Shown here: positions 1 to 19,514 of the stretch, in pieces
Position numbering within the stretch: the stretch's first letter is position 1
How the letters are laid out: every line of letters starts with the position of its first letter
Origin: a virus
Strand: one strand, 5' to 3'
IMG/VR virus record: IMGVR_UViG_3300029951_001074
Span: 1-20,343 of that record
Length of the DNA: 20,343 nt
The notes under the pieces: generated by a model
What the model saw: the letters and a program-made list of their open reading frames with translations, nothing else
Told to the model about the DNA's origin: nothing
Database searches by the model: none
Made by a program: the position numbers and the translations under genes

Positions 1-1320
1 ATGCCCCCCACCGGCGGAATTCGCACCTCCCTGTCCTGGCAAATCACCCAAGGCCCGCTCGGCCCGGCCGTCACCGACGCGATCTTCTCGCCCGGCCAGC
101 CGCTGGCTCCGCCGGACCAGGAGCCGGTGCGGGTCTGGGATTTTCCGGTCGGGGTCAACACCACGATCACGCCGCGCGCGGCCGAGCCGTTCGGCTTCGC
201 CCACCTGCGCGCCTTCTCCAATGTCGAGCTGGTCCGCCTCGCCATCGAGACCCGCAAGGATCAGCTCGAGAGCCTGCATTGGCGGCTGAACCCGCGCGAA
301 GGCGTCGCCGCCACGCCCGCCCTGGCCGCCCGCACCCAAGCACTCACCCAGTTCTGGCGCCGGCCGGACGGCGTCCATCCGTTCGCCACCTGGCTGCGGC
401 TCGCCATCGAGGACCTGCTGGCCATCGACGCCCCGGCGTTCGAGAAGCGCCGCGACCGCGCCGGCCGGCTGATCGGCCTCGACGTGGTGCCCGGCGACAC
501 CATCAAGCTGCTGGTCGACGAGACTGGCCGCACGCCGATCCCGCCGTTTCCAGCCTACCAGCAGATCATCAAGGGCCGCGTCTGGGCCGACCTCAGCACC
601 GACGACCTGCTCTACGCCCCGCGCAACCGCCGCCCGAACCATGTGCTCGGCTTCTCGCCGGTGGAGCAGATCGTCGTCACCATCCAGACGATCATCAACC
701 GCCAGGCCGCCCAGCTGGCTTATTTCACCGAGGGTAACGCCCCGCTCGGCTTCCTCACCGCGCCGGAAGGCTGGGGCCCCAGCCAGATCCGCGAGCTGCA
801 ACTGTGGCTCAACGCCCAGCTCGCCGGCCAGGCCTCCGAGCGCGCCAAGCTGATCTGGACGCCCGCCGGCGCCGACTACAAGTCACTGAAGGACCCGCCA
901 CTGAAGGACGATTTCGACGAGTGGCTGGCCCGCATCGTCGCCTTCGCCTTCTCGCTGCCGCCGACGCCGTTCGTCAAACAGATGAACCGCGCCACCGCCG
1001 GCGAGGACCAGGACCGCAGCCTCGAGGAGGGCCTCGCGCCCCTGAAAGCCTGGGTCAAGCGCCTGATCGACGGCGTCAACGAAGCCGAGTTTGGCGAGAC
1101 CGACCTCGAGTTCGCCTGGCACGAGCCGGTCGAGGTCGACCCCAACGTCCAGTCCGACATCGACGACAAGGCCCTGCGCAACGGCTCGGCCACCATCAAC
1201 GAAATCCGCGCCCGCCGCGGCCAACCCCCGCTCGTCGGCGGTGATGAGCCGCGCATCTACGACGCGACGGGGGCGCAGGCTTTGACCGGCAGCGTAGCCC
1301 CTCAACCTCCCACGCCCTGA
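1..1320 (+). CDS. Phage portal protein
   Basis: Probable portal, the dodecameric ring at the capsid vertex through which DNA is packaged and ejected and to which the tail attaches. The 439-aa product has portal-like features: an N-terminal segment with a VRLAIETRKDQLE stretch, a middle region with GFSPVEQIV followed by a long helix (IQTIINRQAAQLAYF), a GNAPLGFL strand, and a C-terminal helical part with the FSLPPTPF motif common in HK97-type portals. Its position just before a prohead protease and a major capsid gene agrees. The ATG is the first base of the window, so the ribosome binding site cannot be seen and a longer upstream start cannot be excluded; the protein is somewhat short for the family. 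The last residues (about SVAPQPPTP) are encoded by the left arm of a GC-rich palindrome, so the original C-terminus may have been replaced. Function fairly sure, exact ends less so. Confidence 0.85.
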   Translation: MPPTGGIRTSLSWQITQGPLGPAVTDAIFSPGQPLAPPDQEPVRVWDFPVGVNTTITPRAAEPFGFAHLRAFSNVELVRLAIETRKDQLESLHWRLNPREGVAATPALAARTQALTQFWRRPDGVHPFATWLRLAIEDLLAIDAPAFEKRRDRAGRLIGLDVVPGDTIKLLVDETGRTPIPPFPAYQQIIKGRVWADLSTDDLLYAPRNRRPNHVLGFSPVEQIVVTIQTIINRQAAQLAYFTEGNAPLGFLTAPEGWGPSQIRELQLWLNAQLAGQASERAKLIWTPAGADYKSLKDPPLKDDFDEWLARIVAFAFSLPPTPFVKQMNRATAGEDQDRSLEEGLAPLKAWVKRLIDGVNEAEFGETDLEFAWHEPVEVDPNVQSDIDDKALRNGSATINEIRARRGQPPLVGGDEPRIYDATGAQALTGSVAPQPPTP

Positions 1321-1436
1321 CGGGCGCGGGCCCCTCCTTCTCCCTCCGGGAGAAGTGAAGGAAAGCAATCACTTCCACCTCTCCCAAAGGGAGAGGGAGG
1401 GGCCCGGCCGCGCAGCGGTCGGGAGGGTGAGGGGTT
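1296..1436. repeat. Nested GC-rich palindrome (REP/BIME-like) overlapping portal 3' end
   Basis: An imperfect inverted repeat of about 65 bp per arm is centred near 1364. The best core is CGGGCCCCTCC at 1327-1337 against GGAGGGGCCCG at 1396-1406, and AAGTGA at 1353-1358 pairs with TCACTT at 1369-1374. The outer arms pair CCCCTCA-type sequence near 1298 with TGAGGGG near 1428-1434. Each arm carries its own small hairpins: TCTCCC/GGGAGA in both, CGCCC/GGGCG on the left and CCGC/GCGG on the right. There is no T-tract, so it is not a standard intrinsic terminator. It resembles dispersed intergenic palindromes of GC-rich alphaproteobacterial chromosomes; that link is from memory. It begins inside the portal coding region and fills most of the gap before the protease gene. 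Confidence 0.85.
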
Positions 1437-1478
1437 ACGACCTCACCGACCATTCCGCCATCTCTGGAGCCCGCCCGC

Positions 1479-2615
1479 ATGCGCCTCTTCGGCGAACTGA
1501 CCAAGATCGAAGACCAGCCCGATGGCACCCTGAAGGTCTACGGCGTCGCCTCCACCGGCGCCCGCGACGACGCCGGCGAGATCGTGCGGCCGGAGGCTAT
1601 GAAGGCGGCGCTGCCCGACTACGCCCGCTATCCGGCGCTGCGCGAGATGCACCAGCCCACCGCCGCCGGCCGCACCCTGGAGGCCACCGTCGACGACGAC
1701 GGCGCGACGCGGATCGTCGCCCACGTGGTCGATCCGGTCGCCATCGCCAAGGTGAAGTCACGCACCTATTCCGGCTTCTCGATCGGCGGCCGGGTTCTGG
1801 CCCGCGACGCCGCCGACTCGACGGTGATCACCAAGATCAAGCTCAGCGAGATCAGCCTGGTCGACCGCCCCGCCAATCCCGAGGCGGTGATCGACCTCTG
1901 GAAGGCCGACGCCGGTTCCGAACCGGCCCCCAGCAACGACGCGGTCAAGGCGCGCGCGGCCGAGATGGCCGCCGCCGCCGGCCGACCTACCGCCTGGAAG
2001 GACTACGTCGCCAAGGCGCGCGCCGCCCTGATGGCCGACCGGACCGCCGACCAGAGCGCGCTCGCCGACGACACCGAAGACCCCGACGAATCGGACGGGC
2101 CGGCCGACGACAGTGACGACGACTCGGACGACACTGGCGATGACGACGAAGGTGAAGATCTGTCTACGGACGACAGCGATCCCGCCGACACCCCCGCCGA
2201 TATCGCCGCGCGCCTGGCCGAGCTCGCCGCCAGCGATCCGGATGCGCTTCAGGCCGCCCACGACGCCCTGGCCGCCCTCGGCGCCTGCTGCGACCCCGAC
2301 AACTGCCCGGACGCCGGCAAGGCCGCGGCCACGCACGATCTCGCCAAGGCCCTGCCGCGGGTCGAGGCGCTGGAGCGGCGGCTGGAGGCGCAGGACGCCC
2401 TGATCCAGCGGCTCGCCGCCACGCCAGCGGCGCCGCGCACCGCCGCCAGTCCGCACGCCCGCGCCATCGGCAAGTCCGAGGACGCCGATCCCGCCGCCGC
2501 CGACCCCGATCTCACGCCCGCCGACGTCCAGAAGGCCTTCGCGGCCCTGACCCCCGACGAGCGCGCCTTCCTGCTGATGAAGGCCTCCCTCCGTCAGCCC
2601 ATCCCGCTTCCATAA
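1479..2615 (+). CDS. Prohead protease (XkdF/S78-like) fused to scaffold-like C-terminal region
   Basis: Maturation protease of the phage head, here probably also supplying scaffold. Residues 1-145 look like the XkdF-type serine protease of the S78 group: N-terminal strands, a candidate catalytic His58 (in REMHQP), Ser101 in GFSIGG, and the closing EISLVDRPANPEA signature (about 124-136). The rest (146-378) is not protease. It contains a strongly acidic stretch at about 197-238 made mostly of Asp, Glu, Ser and Thr, a CC-x4-C cluster near 270-276, a coiled-coil segment around 293-313 (VEALERRLEAQ), and a helical C-terminus. This arrangement fits a protease-scaffold fusion in which the C-terminal part organises capsid assembly and is then degraded. 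The ATG at 1479 follows GGAG at 1466-1469. Protease assignment is good; the scaffold role is inference. Confidence 0.85.
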   Translation: MRLFGELTKIEDQPDGTLKVYGVASTGARDDAGEIVRPEAMKAALPDYARYPALREMHQPTAAGRTLEATVDDDGATRIVAHVVDPVAIAKVKSRTYSGFSIGGRVLARDAADSTVITKIKLSEISLVDRPANPEAVIDLWKADAGSEPAPSNDAVKARAAEMAAAAGRPTAWKDYVAKARAALMADRTADQSALADDTEDPDESDGPADDSDDDSDDTGDDDEGEDLSTDDSDPADTPADIAARLAELAASDPDALQAAHDALAALGACCDPDNCPDAGKAAATHDLAKALPRVEALERRLEAQDALIQRLAATPAAPRTAASPHARAIGKSEDADPAAADPDLTPADVQKAFAALTPDERAFLLMKASLRQPIPLP

Positions 2616-2630
2616 CCACGGAGCATCCCC

Positions 2631-4169
2631 ATGCCCCACGCCCTCTCCCCCGACGACCTCAAGAAGTCGTTCGTCCACGCCATGTCCCACCCAAGCGAGG
2701 ACATCGCCCGCACCATCCTCGCCCAGGCCGGCGTCGATGCCGATCGGCTGGAGAAGACCATCTCCACCGCCACCGGCCTCGTCGCCTACGACCTGCAGGC
2801 GCCGGCCAAGAACCTCTATCCGGCCGCGACCCCGCTGCGGAACCGCGTCCCCCGCGTCTCCGGCGCCGGCGGCACGGCCACCAACTGGCGCCAGGTCAGC
2901 GCCCTGATCGGCTCCGGCTACGACGCCATCGGCTGGGTGGCCGAGGGCCAGCGCGCCGGCCAGATGAGCTACACGACCGCCAGCAAGTCCGCCGCCTACG
3001 TCACCCTCGGCGAGGAAGACGCCGTCACCTTCGAGGCGATCAACGCCGCGGTGGGCTTCGAGGACATCCAGGCCACCATGGCCATGCGCCTTTTGCAGAA
3101 GACCATGCTGAAGGAGGAGATGGCCATCCTCGCCGGCAACACCTCGCTCGCCCTGGGTACGCCGTCGGCGCCGTCGCTCGCCGCAGCCGGCACGGGCGCC
3201 ACGCTGCCCGCCGCCACCTACTCGGTCATCGTCGTCGCCTTGACGCTCGAAGGCTATCGCAACTCCTCGCTCGCGAACGGCGTCGCCACGTCGAAGACCA
3301 TCACCGGCGCCGACGGCAAGACCTTTGCCATCAACGGCGGCTCGTCCAACAAGTCCTCGAACGAGACGCAAGGCGTGACGCTGGGCCAGACGCTCGCGGC
3401 CACGGTGACGCCCGTCCGGGGCGCCGTCGCCTACGCCTGGTTCGTCGGCCTCGCCGGCTCGGAGCAGCTGCAGGCGATCACCACGATCAACTCCGCTGCG
3501 TTCTCCGCGCCCCTGCTCACCGGCCAGCAGGCCGCCAGCGCGATCACTGGCGACTGCTCCACCAACAGTCTCGGCTTCGACGGTCTGCTCACCACGGCGC
3601 TGAACTCGGCCAACAATGCCTACGTCCAGTCGTTGGCCACCGGCGCCGCCGGCGCGGGCACGGCGCTCACCGCCTCGGGCCGCGGCTCGGTCGATGAGAT
3701 CGACAACATGATGCAGTCGATGTGGGACAGCTATCAGGTCTCGCCCACGGTGCTGTTCGTCAACAGCCAGGAGCTGAAGAATATCACCGAGAAGGTGCTG
3801 TCCTCCGGCACCGGGCCGCTGCTGCAGTACCGGCAGGACCCGGACGGCGGCGGCTACCAGCTCGACGCCGGCGGCATGATCTCCACCTACTACAACCCGT
3901 TCCTGCTCGACGGCGGCATGCGCATCCCGGTGAAGATCCACCCGTTCGTGCCGCCCGGCACCATCCTCGCCTACGCCGAGACCCTGCCGGCCCAGTACCA
4001 GTCCAGCGAGGTGCCCAACGTCGCGGAGGTGAAGTGCCGCCAGGACTACTACGCCATCGACTGGCCGCCGGTGACCCGCCAGCGCCAGAAGGGCGTCTAT
4101 GTCGAGGAAGTCCTCGCCGTCTATGCCCCCTTCGCCATGGGCGTGATCAACAACATCGCCAACGGGTAG
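2631..4169 (+). CDS. Major capsid protein with inserted Ig-like domain
   Basis: Main shell protein of the head, probably HK97 fold. It sits directly after the protease and before the connector. Residues 1-175 and 300-512 carry the capsid core, including KNLYPAATPLRNRVPR near 60-75, a GWVAEGQRAG loop near 101-110 and a C-terminal VYVEEVLAVYAPFAMGV strand-helix typical of this capsid group. Between them, about 177-297, is a Thr/Ser/Ala-rich beta-sandwich-like insertion (LPAATYSVIVVALTLEGY) of Ig/fibronectin type. Such insertions are known in phage capsids and usually project from the particle surface. There is no long N-terminal delta domain, consistent with scaffold being supplied by the upstream protein. 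GGAG at 2620-2623 precedes the ATG. A strong GC hairpin follows the stop codon by 7 bases. Confidence 0.9.
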   Translation: MPHALSPDDLKKSFVHAMSHPSEDIARTILAQAGVDADRLEKTISTATGLVAYDLQAPAKNLYPAATPLRNRVPRVSGAGGTATNWRQVSALIGSGYDAIGWVAEGQRAGQMSYTTASKSAAYVTLGEEDAVTFEAINAAVGFEDIQATMAMRLLQKTMLKEEMAILAGNTSLALGTPSAPSLAAAGTGATLPAATYSVIVVALTLEGYRNSSLANGVATSKTITGADGKTFAINGGSSNKSSNETQGVTLGQTLAATVTPVRGAVAYAWFVGLAGSEQLQAITTINSAAFSAPLLTGQQAASAITGDCSTNSLGFDGLLTTALNSANNAYVQSLATGAAGAGTALTASGRGSVDEIDNMMQSMWDSYQVSPTVLFVNSQELKNITEKVLSSGTGPLLQYRQDPDGGGYQLDAGGMISTYYNPFLLDGGMRIPVKIHPFVPPGTILAYAETLPAQYQSSEVPNVAEVKCRQDYYAIDWPPVTRQRQKGVYVEEVLAVYAPFAMGVINNIANG

Positions 4170-4175
4170 GTGAGA

Positions 4176-4306
4176 ACCCCCGCCCCCTTGCGGGGCGGGG
4201 GCAGGGGGTGGGGGTCTCCCTCCGCCACCCGCACCTCGAAAACACCGATCGAGCCCCCGGCCCGACAGCCCCCCACCCCCAACCCCGCCGCTCCAGGGGG
4301 CGGGGA
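4176..4306. repeat. Second nested GC-rich palindrome between capsid and connector genes
   Basis: Left arm about 4176-4216 and right arm about 4267-4306 form an imperfect inverted repeat around a spacer of about 50 bases. GGGGGTGGGGG near 4204-4214 pairs with CCCCCACCCCC near 4270-4280, and the outer GCCCCC and GGGGGC blocks also match. The left arm contains a perfect 10-bp hairpin, CCCCCGCCCC at 4177-4186 with GGGGCGGGGG at 4192-4201 and loop CTTGC. No T-tract follows. In style it matches the palindrome at 1296-1436: nested hairpins filling a late-gene gap, where other gaps in the head-neck module are 0-15 bases. It may also act as an RNA structure separating capsid from downstream expression, which is inference. 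Confidence 0.8.
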
Positions 4307-4308
4307 GC

Positions 4309-4314
4309 GAGGAG
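4309..4314 (+). promoter_or_regulatory. Shine-Dalgarno site that sets the connector start
   Basis: GAGGAG lies 5 bases before the ATG at 4320. It supports this start over the in-frame GTG at 4170, which would translate through the whole GC palindrome. Confidence 0.7.
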
Positions 4315-4319
4315 TTAAT

Positions 4320-4880
4320 ATGGCCGCCGGCGATCTCACCGATCTCGACACCGTCAAATCCTGGCTGGGCGTCACCACCACCGCGACCGACGGCCTCATC
4401 TGCGGCCTGATCACCGCCGTCTCGTCCTTCATCGTCAACTACCTCGGCCGCCAGATCCTCGCCGGCAGCTACGTCGAGACCTACCGCGGCAACGGCCAGT
4501 CGCTGATGCTGCTGCGCAATTTCCCGATCACGGCCGTGGCGAGCGTCGCCTTCGCCGGCCAGACCATCACCGCCGCCGCCGATCCGGTGACGCTCACCAG
4601 CGGCATCCTGTTCGACGACCGCGCTCTGCACCTCATCGGCCACCGCTTCCCGCTGAGCCGGCCGGTGGTGGTGACCTATACCGCCGGCTACGCCACCGCG
4701 CCCGCCGATGTCGCCCAGGCGGTGGTCGAGCTCGTCGGCGAAGCCTACCGGCGCCGCGACCGCATCGGCGTCGCCTCCAAGACGCTCGGCGGCCAGGAAG
4801 TCGTCGCCTTCAGTTTGAAGGACATGAACGATACCGCCCGCGCCCTGCTCGCGCCCTACCAGGTGCTGGCGCCCTTCTGA
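4320..4880 (+). CDS. Head-tail connector (gp6-like adaptor)
   Basis: Probable adaptor that docks under the portal after packaging. The 186-aa product starts with the pattern usual for gp6-like connectors: TDLDTVKSWLG, then two helices and VNYLGRQI. A beta-rich centre follows (VETYRGNGQSLMLLRNFPI), then VVTYTAGYATAPADVAQAVVELVGEAYRRR, the C-terminal helix signature of the family. The reading frame is open upstream to a GTG at 4170, but that extension is low-complexity sequence from the palindrome. The ATG at 4320 with a strong Shine-Dalgarno and the family's normal N-terminus is the better start. The stop overlaps the next ATG by one base (TGATG), so the two genes are probably translationally coupled. 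Confidence 0.85.
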   Translation: MAAGDLTDLDTVKSWLGVTTTATDGLICGLITAVSSFIVNYLGRQILAGSYVETYRGNGQSLMLLRNFPITAVASVAFAGQTITAAADPVTLTSGILFDDRALHLIGHRFPLSRPVVVTYTAGYATAPADVAQAVVELVGEAYRRRDRIGVASKTLGGQEVVAFSLKDMNDTARALLAPYQVLAPF

Positions 4881-5377
4881 TGTTCACCGTCTCGCTCACC
4901 GGCGCGGACGAGCTGGGCGCGCGGCTGGACGGCCTGCCGGCCTCGGTTCTGGCCGCCGTCGCCGCCAAGTCCGCCGCGCTCGCCGATCAGCTGCTCGAAC
5001 TGGCGCGGACCAAGCTCCAGGGCGGGGTGCTGAAGTCCCGCACCGGCGCGCTCGCCGCCTCGGTGGGCGTCATCGGCCCCGCCATCGAGGGCGACCGGGT
5101 CGTCACCCGGCTCTTCGCCGGCGGCGACCTGAAGTACGCCGCGATCCAGGAGTACGGCGGCGTTACGGCGCCGCACGACATCCTGCCCGAGCGCGCCAAG
5201 GCGCTGGCCTTCCTGGTCGGCGGCGAACAGGTCTTCGCCAAGGTCGTCCACCATCCCGGCTCACGCATTCCCGCCCGCTCCTACCTGCGCTCGTCGCTGG
5301 CCGAGATGGCCGATGAGATCGAGAGCGGCATGAAGGCGGCGGTGCTGGACGCGCTCAGCCAAGCGACGGGGTCGTAG
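4880..5377 (+). CDS. HK97 gp10-like neck/tail-completion protein
   Basis: Head-tail joining protein of the HK97 gp10 type, acting at the neck as a stopper or tail-completion factor. The 165-aa protein shows the family pattern: an N-terminal strand and helix (LGARLDGLPASVLAAVAAK), LKSRTGALAASV near 52-63, YAAIQEYGG near 91-99, a histidine-containing turn leading to ILPERAKALAF, and a terminal HPGSRIPARSYLRSSL helix. Its place between the connector and the tail-terminator candidate is the usual one. It overlaps the connector stop by one base and is 3 bases from the next gene. The family is clear; which neck role it plays here is not decidable from sequence. Confidence 0.8.
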   Translation: MFTVSLTGADELGARLDGLPASVLAAVAAKSAALADQLLELARTKLQGGVLKSRTGALAASVGVIGPAIEGDRVVTRLFAGGDLKYAAIQEYGGVTAPHDILPERAKALAFLVGGEQVFAKVVHHPGSRIPARSYLRSSLAEMADEIESGMKAAVLDALSQATGS

Positions 5378-5380
5378 CTC

Positions 5381-5821
5381 ATGGACTCCGAGACGATCTA
5401 CCAGGCGCTTTTCGACCTCACCGCCAGCCTGGCCTGGAGCCCCGGCGGCGCGCTCGCCTCCTCGTCTCGTCGGGTGAAGACGTTCGAGGACCTGCCCGCC
5501 CAGCCGGCGCTCTGCCAGGCCGAGACCGACGAGACCATGACCCAGGTCACCAGCCAGGTCGCGGTGACCACGCTGGGCGCCAGCTGGCTGATCTACCACC
5601 AGGCCGGCAAGGACGACGACGCCGTCCCGGCCCAGACCACCAACGCCATCCTCACCGCCGTGCGCGGCCTCTTCGTCGATCCCACCGATCCCGACTTCGC
5701 CCAGACCCTCGGCGGCCTGGTGCACAAGTGCTGGATCGAGGGCCGCATCCAGAAATTCCAGGGCGACCTCGACGGCCAGACGCTGCTCGTCGTCCCGATC
5801 AAGATCCTCGTTCCAGCCTAG
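5381..5821 (+). CDS. Probable tail terminator protein
   Basis: A 146-aa protein placed between the gp10-like neck protein and the tail tube protein, where the tail terminator (which caps the tube and joins tail to head) is normally encoded. The N-terminus (YQALFDLTASL) and the C-terminal pattern WIEGRIQKFQGDLDGQTLLVVPIKI resemble tail-terminator-like proteins of many siphophages and myophages, in which a conserved dipeptide LDGQ precedes a final strand. No catalytic motif or membrane segment is present. It starts 3 bases after the previous stop without a strong Shine-Dalgarno, so coupling to the upstream gene is likely. Function rests on position and weak pattern similarity. Confidence 0.65.
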   Translation: MDSETIYQALFDLTASLAWSPGGALASSSRRVKTFEDLPAQPALCQAETDETMTQVTSQVAVTTLGASWLIYHQAGKDDDAVPAQTTNAILTAVRGLFVDPTDPDFAQTLGGLVHKCWIEGRIQKFQGDLDGQTLLVVPIKILVPA

Positions 5822-16342: not shown

Positions 16343-18277
16343 ATGCGCTTTCCGCTCCGCCTGCTGGCGGCGGCTTCGGCCGTCGCGCTCGTCCCCGCCG
16401 CGGCGCTCGCCGCCCCGGTGCCGACCTACACGCCCGCGCCGACGCCCTACACCGGCGGCGAGTTGCTCTTCTGCACCAACTCGGCCGGGACCTCGTCCTA
16501 CCGGTGCGACACGTCGGACGTCGCCAAGGTCGTGCTGGGCGCGACCAACGCCTGGAGCGGGCCGCAGACGTTCGGCGGCGGCGTCTCGCTCGACACCCTG
16601 CCGGCGCATGTCATCATCGTCGGCGAGGACGCCTCGCTCGTCACCGGCGTCGGGCCCGGAACCGCCGGCCAGTTCCTGGTCAGCGGCGGCGCCTCGGGCG
16701 ACCCCAGCTTCACCACCCTGATCAGCGGCGCGCCGTCGACCGGCGACTGCGTCAAATGGGCCTCCGCCACCCAACTCGCCGACGCCGGCGTCCCCTGCGG
16801 CGGCGCCCCCGGCGCCAGCGGCGACCTCGTCTTCAATAACGCCGGCGCGCTGGCGGGGACGACGGATTGGCAACACCTATCGGGCGGGACGCTTTACAGC
16901 ACGCTGACCGGCGGCACGGCGGCGATCTCGCTGAACTCCAACGGCAGCGTAGACGGACAAATCGGCACGGTGGACTCGACCCATTTCGGGCTTTGCTATG
17001 GGGGCCCATCAACGCTCGGGACATGTCCGCTGGAATGGAGCGGCCTGGGTGTCTCGATCACCGGCAATCAGTTCAACATCACGATGACCAATACGACGAA
17101 CTTCTATTCAGGCTCTACGATCGCGCTGCAGTTCTATCCATCCGGTTCGTCTACTGGGACCGATCTGACAGTCGAGGCCGGGACTCTGTTGAATTTTGGC
17201 AGCGGAGCCGTTGGCCTCTGCTACGACACTTATTCCGGGGGCGCGATCATCGATGTCGGGAACGCTTGCGGCAACAAAGCAGGCGCGATGCAACTCGGCA
17301 CCCTGATCGCCAGCGCCGCGATCGATCTCCCTGACGGCGGCCAGGATACGACGAGTTTCCTAAGAGTCGGCGATCACGTCGGTCCCGGCAGCGGAATGGT
17401 GTTTGAAGCACCGGCTAGTGCCGTTATGCCGACGCCCGCGGTTGTCGCCTTCGGCGCCGGTGCGATCGGTCTTCCCGCTGCTGGCGTGCCACTCGGGCCA
17501 ACTGGACAGTATCTCTATCCCGGCCTGACGATCCAAGGCTGGCACACGCCCGGGACTGAGGGCTGTTCGGTCTATTGCCAAGTCGATGACATGACGTTCG
17601 AAGATCACGCGGGAAACGTCATTGCAGGCGTTCAATCACCCGTAAACAGTGCATTCGGCTATCCGTTCCCCTTCCTCATAGGCGCGACGCGCACAGTGAC
17701 GGCCAGCGCCGGCGACGAGGGGATGTATGTCAGCCAACTGCTGATTGGCGATATCATCCCGTCCGGCGCGGTCGAGGGTCCGCGTATCCTATTCCAGCCT
17801 GGGCCAAGCCAGACGTCGCCGGCGACCGGGCCGGCTTTCCTGGGAATTGGCCCGGAGTCACCGAGCAACAACAATTTCCGGTTCGGGCACTCCGGCAACG
17901 AGGTGTCGCCCTGGGATGACGACGGTACCTACCCGACTGACGTCGATGTTGCGGGTTGTTGGGGTACCGGCATTGGTGCGGGTGCGGGCTTCCAAGGCGG
18001 CGCGGGCGTCGTTTGGGAGGGAAAGCTTTGCCCGCTTTCGGGCGGAGGGTTCGAGATTATGAATGCTGCGAAGAGCGGCGATGCGCCGTTGAAGGCAGCA
18101 TTTTACCGAACCGTCGCCACAACCGTATCGGGATTGGCGACGGTTGATGCTTCGCCAAGTGTTGGGGATAGGGCGGTCGTCACCGACGCGACAAGTTGCG
18201 CTTTCAATTCGGCCGTCACCGGAGGCGGCTCCGCGAAATGCCCGGTCGTCTATACTGGCTCCTGGGTCGCGGGCTGA
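16343..18277 (+). CDS. Fibre-like protein with Sec signal peptide and paired cysteines
   Basis: A 644-aa protein next to the tail tip gene, probably a tail fibre or surface adhesin. Residues 1-24 look like a classical Sec signal peptide: MRFPLR, a hydrophobic Ala/Val/Leu core, and an ALA-A cleavage site near 23/24. This is odd for a virion protein assembled in the cytoplasm. The body is low-charge, Gly/Ser/Thr-rich beta sequence. The C-terminus (SVGDRAVVTDAT, then AVTGGGSAKCPVVY and SWVAG) matches an end motif seen in many phage tail proteins. The 14 cysteines fall in neighbouring pairs: 44/55, 136/152, 218/228, 293/309, 408/412, 539/563, 619/633. From about 16860 on, base composition is visibly less GC-rich than in the tail genes, suggesting recent exchange. 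The 3' end overlaps the convergent acyltransferase gene by 28 bases. Confidence 0.7.
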   Translation: MRFPLRLLAAASAVALVPAAALAAPVPTYTPAPTPYTGGELLFCTNSAGTSSYRCDTSDVAKVVLGATNAWSGPQTFGGGVSLDTLPAHVIIVGEDASLVTGVGPGTAGQFLVSGGASGDPSFTTLISGAPSTGDCVKWASATQLADAGVPCGGAPGASGDLVFNNAGALAGTTDWQHLSGGTLYSTLTGGTAAISLNSNGSVDGQIGTVDSTHFGLCYGGPSTLGTCPLEWSGLGVSITGNQFNITMTNTTNFYSGSTIALQFYPSGSSTGTDLTVEAGTLLNFGSGAVGLCYDTYSGGAIIDVGNACGNKAGAMQLGTLIASAAIDLPDGGQDTTSFLRVGDHVGPGSGMVFEAPASAVMPTPAVVAFGAGAIGLPAAGVPLGPTGQYLYPGLTIQGWHTPGTEGCSVYCQVDDMTFEDHAGNVIAGVQSPVNSAFGYPFPFLIGATRTVTASAGDEGMYVSQLLIGDIIPSGAVEGPRILFQPGPSQTSPATGPAFLGIGPESPSNNNFRFGHSGNEVSPWDDDGTYPTDVDVAGCWGTGIGAGAGFQGGAGVVWEGKLCPLSGGGFEIMNAAKSGDAPLKAAFYRTVATTVSGLATVDASPSVGDRAVVTDATSCAFNSAVTGGGSAKCPVVYTGSWVAG

Positions 18278-19344
18278 GGAACCCGCGCGCGCAAAGGCAC
18301 GCTGTCGGACACGAATTTTAGGCCCCTGCGAATTGGCGGCTCGAAAACGGTAGCTACCAAGACGCTCAACACCACCATCAGCGCTGCGGTAGCGAAGGCG
18401 TCTAGATGAATGATTACGCCGAGCCGAACACCGAACCTCGCGTGGAGCAGATAGAGCGGGTACGTGGCTAGGCCGAGCGCCCGGATCGCGCCGCTCAACC
18501 GGGCAAGCGCCGCCCAAATCCGGCGATTTAGGATAACCGACGATCCTGCTGTTACGACGAGCGTGATCCACACAATAACCGGGACCAGCTCTTGCGCCTG
18601 GAACGGCCGAGCGGCCCCCGCTCCAGACGATGCCGCGAAGGCGTTGAACATGATCTGAGCAATGCCCGACGCGAGGCAAACGAGCATCAGCGCCGACCGG
18701 CTGGCGGTCATGCCGTAGCGCATGGTCTCTCTAAATAATGCGCCGAGCGCGAAGTAGCAGCCGAACTGGACAAGGCTCAGTAGGATCGGCGGGACCATCT
18801 CAAAACGAGCAGCGTCGATCGGAGATGCCGCGTCGGCCGCTACGACAAGACGGCCAAGCCACCATAGGCCACTACCGATCGCCAATATACGGATTAGATT
18901 TCTCAGTGAAAGAAGGCTTTGCCGACCCAGTGTGCAAAAAACGAAGACGTAAAAGGTGATCTCAATTGGAAGTGTCCAGTAGACGGCGTCCACGTAAGGG
19001 CCTGTGAGCCAAAGACTGACGGTCCTAATGTACTGATTAAATAGACCCCCGGTATTTCCCGAGAACGCAACAATTGTCGCTGTGGCCGTTCCGCTTATCC
19101 ACGCCGCTGGCATTAGACGGGCGACACGCGCCTTGACGAATGACGAAGCCGTCGCGCCTTCGGCGGAGTAGGCGATGACGAAGCCCGAAATGACGAAGAA
19201 AACTTCCACGCCGACCCACCCGGCCCAGGCGAACGAAAGTCGATTCTGAGGAAAGGCGTGGTCGTAGTGGAACGCCATGACCATTGCTGCAGCCGCGAAC
19301 CGGATTAGGTCGAGGCCGAGGATGTGGCGATCATTCATTGCCAT
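18250..19344 (-). CDS. Acyltransferase family 3 (OafA/YrhL-like) membrane protein
   Basis: Inner-membrane acyltransferase likely to add acetyl or a similar group to surface polysaccharide (O-antigen, capsule or S-layer glycan). The 364-aa product has the family motifs in order: LDLIRFAAAAMVMAFH with Arg15 and the key His26, VGVEVFFVISGF near 44-55, VKARVARLMPAAW, and YWTLPIEITFYVF, followed by about seven further hydrophobic helices. A basic Pro-rich tail ends the chain. I chose the ATG at 19344; an ATG at 19338 and a TTG at 19353 are alternatives, and none has a clear Shine-Dalgarno. It is the only minus-strand gene, is less GC-rich than the tail genes, and overlaps the fibre gene tail to tail. 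Phage-encoded acyltransferases of this kind are known in lysogenic conversion, where altered glycans block related phages. Substrate unknown. Confidence 0.88.
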   Translation of the reverse strand: MAMNDRHILGLDLIRFAAAAMVMAFHYDHAFPQNRLSFAWAGWVGVEVFFVISGFVIAYSAEGATASSFVKARVARLMPAAWISGTATATIVAFSGNTGGLFNQYIRTVSLWLTGPYVDAVYWTLPIEITFYVFVFCTLGRQSLLSLRNLIRILAIGSGLWWLGRLVVAADAASPIDAARFEMVPPILLSLVQFGCYFALGALFRETMRYGMTASRSALMLVCLASGIAQIMFNAFAASSGAGAARPFQAQELVPVIVWITLVVTAGSSVILNRRIWAALARLSGAIRALGLATYPLYLLHARFGVRLGVIIHLDAFATAALMVVLSVLVATVFEPPIRRGLKFVSDSVPLRARVPQPATQEPV

Positions 19345-19514
19345 GACGAACAACTAACGCGGGTGTGGTCGCGCCGCCAAGACCCAACGCCAGGTTACAT
19401 CGCGCGGTGTATGACGCGCGCGTCGCTCCCAACGACCGATACGCCGCCCATTTGCGCGTCCCTCGTCAGTCGTCCGCTCCCTGTTCACCGCCGGATCGTT
19501 GAGGCTCGTACGAA

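Follow-up and report, generated by a model that had tools for sequence, protein, structure and literature searches.

REPINs, doublets of REP units, have been described as short GC-rich palindromic units that stand in inverted pairs between genes, often at gene 3′ ends, with many per genome (PMC3116915, PMC3733652). The REP units carry a GTAG/CGTC tetranucleotide tag at one end, and ordinary REPIN elements are moved by RAYT, a Y1 tyrosine transposase. MITEs are gene-less elements with the same ends as a larger, gene-carrying element of the genomes that they inhabit, and both occupied and empty versions of a site are met. The CIR repeats of Caulobacter (Chen and Shapiro 2003, as related in PMC2229807) are intergenic elements of about 110 bp with a GANTC methylation site. 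Among phages, terminators of the T7 T-phi type place a stable hairpin right behind the capsid gene and before the connector genes, and LUZ100 has an apparent strong terminator immediately 3′ of its capsid gene (PMC10134795). VsrA of Caulobacter crescentus, a DUF559 protein, is a predicted endonuclease linked to DNA damage (PMC12907096).

The stretch of DNA analysed here, referred to as the window, is an IMG/VR viral record of 20,343 bases containing a siphovirus-type structural module of portal, S78-type prohead protease, major capsid, head-tail adaptor, neck/tail completion and tail genes. The portal gene (1-1320, plus strand; phrog_2662, E 1e-64; PF04860) is followed on the same strand by the prohead protease/scaffold gene (1479-2615; PF04586, E 4e-7; phrog_80) and the major capsid gene (2631-4169). 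The latter was assigned from phrog_13692, where no function is named, together with tblastn, in which annotated major capsid proteins of Arthrobacter phages match it with 24-25% identity. The reading frame of the head-tail adaptor gene (4320-4880, plus strand; phrog_442, PF05135) is open upstream as far as 4170, and its start was placed at 4320 by homology and the presence of an ATG. A related capsid is encoded in 392 IMG/VR stretches, and among cultured or binned genomes the closest relatives come mostly from Caulobacteraceae and other alphaproteobacterial MAGs; the phage or prophage of the window is of Caulobacteraceae type.

The gaps 3′ of the portal and capsid genes are 158 and 150 nt long, while the remaining measured gaps of the head-neck region lie between -1 and 15 nt (protease 15, adaptor -1, neck 3). 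As the first-pass annotation had pointed out, a palindrome occupies each of these two large gaps. It had placed them at 1296-1436 and 4176-4306, and both are real, with extents of 1293-1439 (palindrome 1) and 4176-4309 (palindrome 2) in the present analysis, the first not being confined to its gap. The portal stop codon ends at 1320, such that the last portal codons lie within the left arm of palindrome 1. The C-terminal tail of the portal is unlike that of the relatives compared, save for L006, where it is identical. Palindrome 1 is absent from most close relatives; it was inserted, or replaced other sequence, sporadically at the 3′ end of the portal gene and thereby changed the C-terminus of the protein.

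Both palindromes are inverted doublets. Palindrome 1, with arms at 1293-1357 and 1376-1439 and hairpins facing inwards, is 76% self-complementary along the full 1293-1439 and has a predicted fold of -115.7 kcal/mol (z -10.7). Palindrome 2 is made up of units at 4174-4217 (minus strand) and 4266-4309 (plus strand) with hairpins facing outwards; its arms, 4178-4217 and 4267-4305, are 83% complementary. The z-score of its fold, -3.0, is weaker because the shuffles keep the composition of C and G runs. No others of the 25 longest inverted repeats in the window have arms less than 60 nt apart. The two had been described as similar. Their sequences are in fact unrelated, the best local score between them being 10, which is the noise level, and their layouts are opposite, with the small hairpins inside in palindrome 1 and outside in palindrome 2; they are members of different repeat families and not a matched pair. 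A search of Rfam returned sub-threshold matches to microRNA hairpins only, which were taken as chance matches to a long hairpin.

Both families are dispersed in the chromosomes of Caulobacteraceae, where many of the genomes searched are split over many contigs. Palindrome 1 has matches at E 1e-8 or better in 57 of 199 genomes, among them full-length copies at 80-83% in G090; one genome has 104 matches. BLAST with palindrome 2 against the host genomes gave no match, probably owing to low-complexity masking, and this family was searched by pattern and covariance model instead. The pattern GGGGGCAGGGGGTGGGGG, with one mismatch allowed, has 11 copies in G043, all but one of them with the two-armed architecture of palindrome 2, and the reversed control has none. 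A covariance model of one arm detected units in 75 of 149 Caulobacteraceae genomes, up to at least 42 per genome, and the strongest are mostly in inverted pairs. The two units of the window score 60.5 and 46.4 bits against covariance model R1, the window copy being among the sequences from which the model was built. The stems of the doublets show compensatory changes, for example from T-A to G-C in the window copy. In the phages, members of the palindrome 2 family are found in the post-capsid gap of the window, L007, L008/L009, L014, L016, L017, L018, L019/L020, L023 and L026, and in the post-portal gap of L015, L018 and L028. Reverse-strand open reading frames are also present, in the first gap of L016, L041 and L087 and in the second gap of L021. 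Both gaps tolerate small inserts.

The gap behind the capsid gene was compared across relatives dereplicated at 93% capsid DNA identity, by which kinship is reduced and not removed. For every gene, the strongest local stem within the following 90 nt was scored, with 100 dinucleotide shuffles for each, since MFE z-scores over 110 nt underrate hairpins built from C and G runs. A stem scoring at least 24, a threshold picked after the distribution had been seen, is present behind the capsid gene of 44 of 57 relatives (77%) and behind the portal gene of 5 of 49 (p = 1e-12); elsewhere such stems are found after 4 of 36 protease genes, after 3 of 30 neck genes and at 3 of 62 random places (5%). The higher count after the adaptor gene, 16 of 52, is probably due to the GC-rich coding sequence downstream of it. 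The shuffle test does not depend on the threshold, and here 38 of 57 stems after the capsid gene beat their own shuffles against 7 of 52 after the adaptor gene. In relatives with less than 75% capsid identity, the hairpin is present in 32 of 43 after the capsid and in 2 of 31 after the portal.

The post-capsid hairpin is mostly kept in relatives down to about 65% capsid identity, often with unrelated sequences. In 12 relatives it is followed by a terminator-like T tract, compared with none after the portal gene; hairpins with T-rich tracts include those of L029, L083 and L048-L052. L033, L037 and L061 have simple GC hairpins, and in other relatives the slot is filled by palindromic doublets of several repeat families. 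This pattern would be expected if selection keeps a hairpin at this position and not its sequence. The hairpin is not essential, as nothing comparable is present in L087, L041, L022 and L078, whose post-capsid gaps are short. No T tract follows palindrome 2 on the sense strand of the window, and in this phage it is therefore not an intrinsic terminator of the canonical kind; a hairpin that terminates partially or shields the 3′ end is favoured over one that brings about efficient intrinsic termination. By analogy with the hairpin behind T7-type capsid genes, palindrome 2 could plausibly be a transcript-end or attenuation hairpin, with the difference from the T-phi type that the slot is here filled by a host-derived repeat lacking a T tract. 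The suggestion in the first-pass annotation that the palindromes act as structured RNA around the capsid transcript is hence plausible for palindrome 2 only, given the hairpins in the relatives.

In the host chromosomes a number of palindrome 2 pairs are separated by about 400 bp, and the interval contains a DUF559 gene (PF04480, a Vsr-like endonuclease); these long-spaced pairs mostly represent one orthologous locus and were left out as independent evidence. DUF559 genes were therefore counted over a set of 18 genomes: each of 12 palindrome-2-rich genomes has 2-13, compared with 0-1 in six genomes with one unit or none, the six being smaller and both groups hand-picked. Long inverted arms, of the palindrome 1, palindrome 2 or a related type, flank 19 of the 27 DUF559 loci with enough flanking sequence and none of 2,420 control windows obtained by tiling 400 kb from eight of the same genomes (p = 1e-41). 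Mismatched flanks had been tried as the control, were inflated by shared arm families, and were replaced by the tiled windows. Class-wide, arms are present at 14 of 25 DUF559 loci at a score cut-off of 18, and at 10 with a cut-off of 23, against 0 of 100 control windows. The arm-DUF559-arm elements are 437-628 bp long, and the sequence outside the arms is unlike between most loci. The arms of palindrome 1 match those of 16-18 of 30 DUF559 loci, its hairpins having the opposite orientation to the flanking arms there, while those of palindrome 2 were matched by BLAST at just 2 of 30. DUF559 genes of the hosts are specifically flanked by these arms, or by similar ones, in inverted orientation. 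No description of this association was found in the open-access literature. VsrA belongs to the protein family that the bracketed genes encode and comes from the same family of bacteria; the role proposed for VsrA is in mismatch repair and not mobility, and the text of that paper contains no mention of palindromes (PMC12907096).

For three DUF559 elements of G154 the sequences on either side of the arms were joined and searched against the genus, and all three orthologous sites were found full, with DUF559 present, in two or three genomes. At the first site a gene-less doublet of another palindromic family is present in G150 and G321, and G095, G066 and G073 have neither; at the second the doublet is found in G066, G166 and G322, with neither in G150 and G073; and at the third G080 has the doublet and G095 neither. 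At five of the six unfilled sites one short hairpin remains at the junction, mostly CCCTCTCTC-loop-GAGAGAGGG, like the outer hairpin of the arms. Such a leftover would fit insertion at a hairpin, as a duplicated target, or else a deletion running from one outer hairpin to the other. Palindromic families therefore replace one another at a single chromosomal site, as they do in the post-capsid gap of the phages.

Taken as a whole, it seems reasonably probable that these two host-type repeats, of which palindrome 1 is sporadic, are gene-less relatives of the DUF559 elements, and that palindrome 2 provides a hairpin at the end of the capsid message. The doublets would have moved from the host chromosome onto the phage DNA; a DUF559 gene was looked for within the phage gaps and loci and was not found there. 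Palindrome 2 may act as a partial terminator or as a barrier to 3′ exonucleases, through which the capsid would be made in excess over the products of the downstream adaptor and neck genes. Palindrome 1 probably has no effect, or a mild polar one.

The alternative that survives best, which we nevertheless regard as unlikely, is that both are neutral hitch-hikers, selfish miniature elements that enter whatever intergenic gaps they meet in DNA on its way through the host and have no function in the phage. The host-type nature of both repeats, the sporadic occurrence of palindrome 1 and the filling of one slot by different families in different relatives, with the same replacement at chromosomal sites, would all fit such a view. 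It accounts less well for a post-capsid hairpin that distant relatives keep by means of non-repeat sequences, 12 of them with T tracts, and for the far lower frequency of hairpins after the portal, protease or neck genes.

That these are ordinary REPINs moved by RAYT is improbable, even though they share with REPINs the inverted doublets, each a hairpin plus tail, the intergenic location and the tens of units per genome. The tag of the REP units is missing from the family consensus: the window copy of palindrome 1 has GTAG at 1294-1297, where the aligned family mostly has CGTAACCCC, and a search of the palindrome 2 units for GTAG/CGTC found none. The RAYT gene (PF01797) was not found in four palindrome-2-rich genomes of unstated completeness (G043, G046, G031 and G095), and the single PF01797 copy of G002 is without flanking palindrome 1 arms; the arms surround genes for DUF559 endonucleases instead. 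MITEs offer a further parallel, with gene-less and gene-carrying elements sharing their ends and with occupied and empty sites, as seen in L034, which has no palindrome 1, and at the chromosomal DUF559 sites. The larger element differs here in holding a PD-(D/E)XK nuclease of the DUF559 family and not a known transposase. The repeats can be called REPIN- or MITE-like; they do not pass the RAYT and tag tests, and the association with DUF559 is the part worth following. CIR repeats, as related in PMC2229807, are likewise alphaproteobacterial, intergenic and built of two inverted arms; identity with them was rejected, there being no GANTC in either palindrome (none at 1-1814 or 2126-5383).

The first-pass annotation had also proposed that the palindromes are recombination sites through which the protease-capsid cassette is exchanged as a unit, with a break in similarity at the palindromes and independent variation of the cassette as the signs to look for. 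The relative L034 is 93-98% identical to the window over most of the portal gene and 92-96% over most of the capsid gene, its dips in identity do not coincide with the palindromes and, the insert itself aside, identity is even across the junction; its contig stops within the capsid gene and so tests the first junction only. L007 tests both, and has no step in identity at either. At 95% identity in both portal and capsid, L034 has a post-portal gap of 40 nt without palindrome 1. Across 11 complete relatives the pairwise identity of the capsid correlates with that of the portal (rho 0.50), adaptor (0.45) and tail completion (0.45) genes no less than with that of the protease (0.31). The exchange reading thus fails by the refuting sign that the annotation itself had named, similarity that runs evenly through the junctions. 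The palindromes do not delimit an exchanged unit and, whatever the reverse-strand open reading frames in these gaps of some relatives might lend to the idea, two mutually unrelated repeats, the first of them lacking in most close relatives, are very improbable linkers for a capsid cassette.

Returning to the reading of the palindromes as host repeats related to DUF559 elements, we can offer, as a possibility rather less likely than not, a wider proposal. Alphaproteobacterial DUF559 nucleases may mobilise or maintain a large class of palindromic elements, whose gene-less derivatives would insert at hairpins at gene 3′ ends, swap with one another and enter phages, one of them having been adopted as the hairpin at the end of the capsid transcript. 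A part for DUF559 as the mobiliser is suggested by its association with the arms. If this link is true, there is a candidate partner enzyme for abundant palindromic repeats of alphaproteobacteria for which no tie to RAYT was found here, and a role open to testing for a widespread domain of unknown function; a nuclease and short hairpins that travel together would form a parallel to the RAYT-REPIN system. For the phages, a post-capsid hairpin that is kept in position and often not in sequence suggests the repeated recruitment of whatever hairpins are available, host repeats included, and hairpins recruited in this way would determine how much capsid is made relative to connector proteins.

Repeat units of both palindrome types also alter the C-terminal tail of a portal protein. 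In the related phage locus L015 a unit of the palindrome 2 type (L015:3230-3273) is read through by the portal reading frame, giving the protein a new tail, PAGRGQGVGV, and the portal tail of the window is likewise rewritten, there by palindrome 1 (1293-1439). In other related loci one of the same two gaps that hold the window palindromes, behind the portal or the capsid gene, contains a minus-strand ORF (L016:3100-3624, L041:1871-2311, L087:7963-8514 and L021:7826-8680). Those of L041 and L087 are mutually alike, with N-terminal starts resembling those of secreted proteins. Both gaps are possible insertion points for extra (moron) genes. Where the structural module of the window ends, a minus-strand ORF (18250-19353) has a predicted product of 367 aa that, judged from its sequence, resembles an acyltransferase-3 membrane protein; it is possibly a surface-modifying moron gene.

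Inverted palindrome 2 arms also flank a DUF559 gene in nine Caulobacteraceae genomes (L143-L151), some with additional palindrome 2 units. An acyl-CoA dehydrogenase-like gene lies on either side, and the site is apparently one orthologous place across the nine. The window (1-20343) has 26 copies of GANTC, the site methylated by CcrM, where shuffles predict about 96; this scarcity is consistent with a long stay in Caulobacterales hosts.
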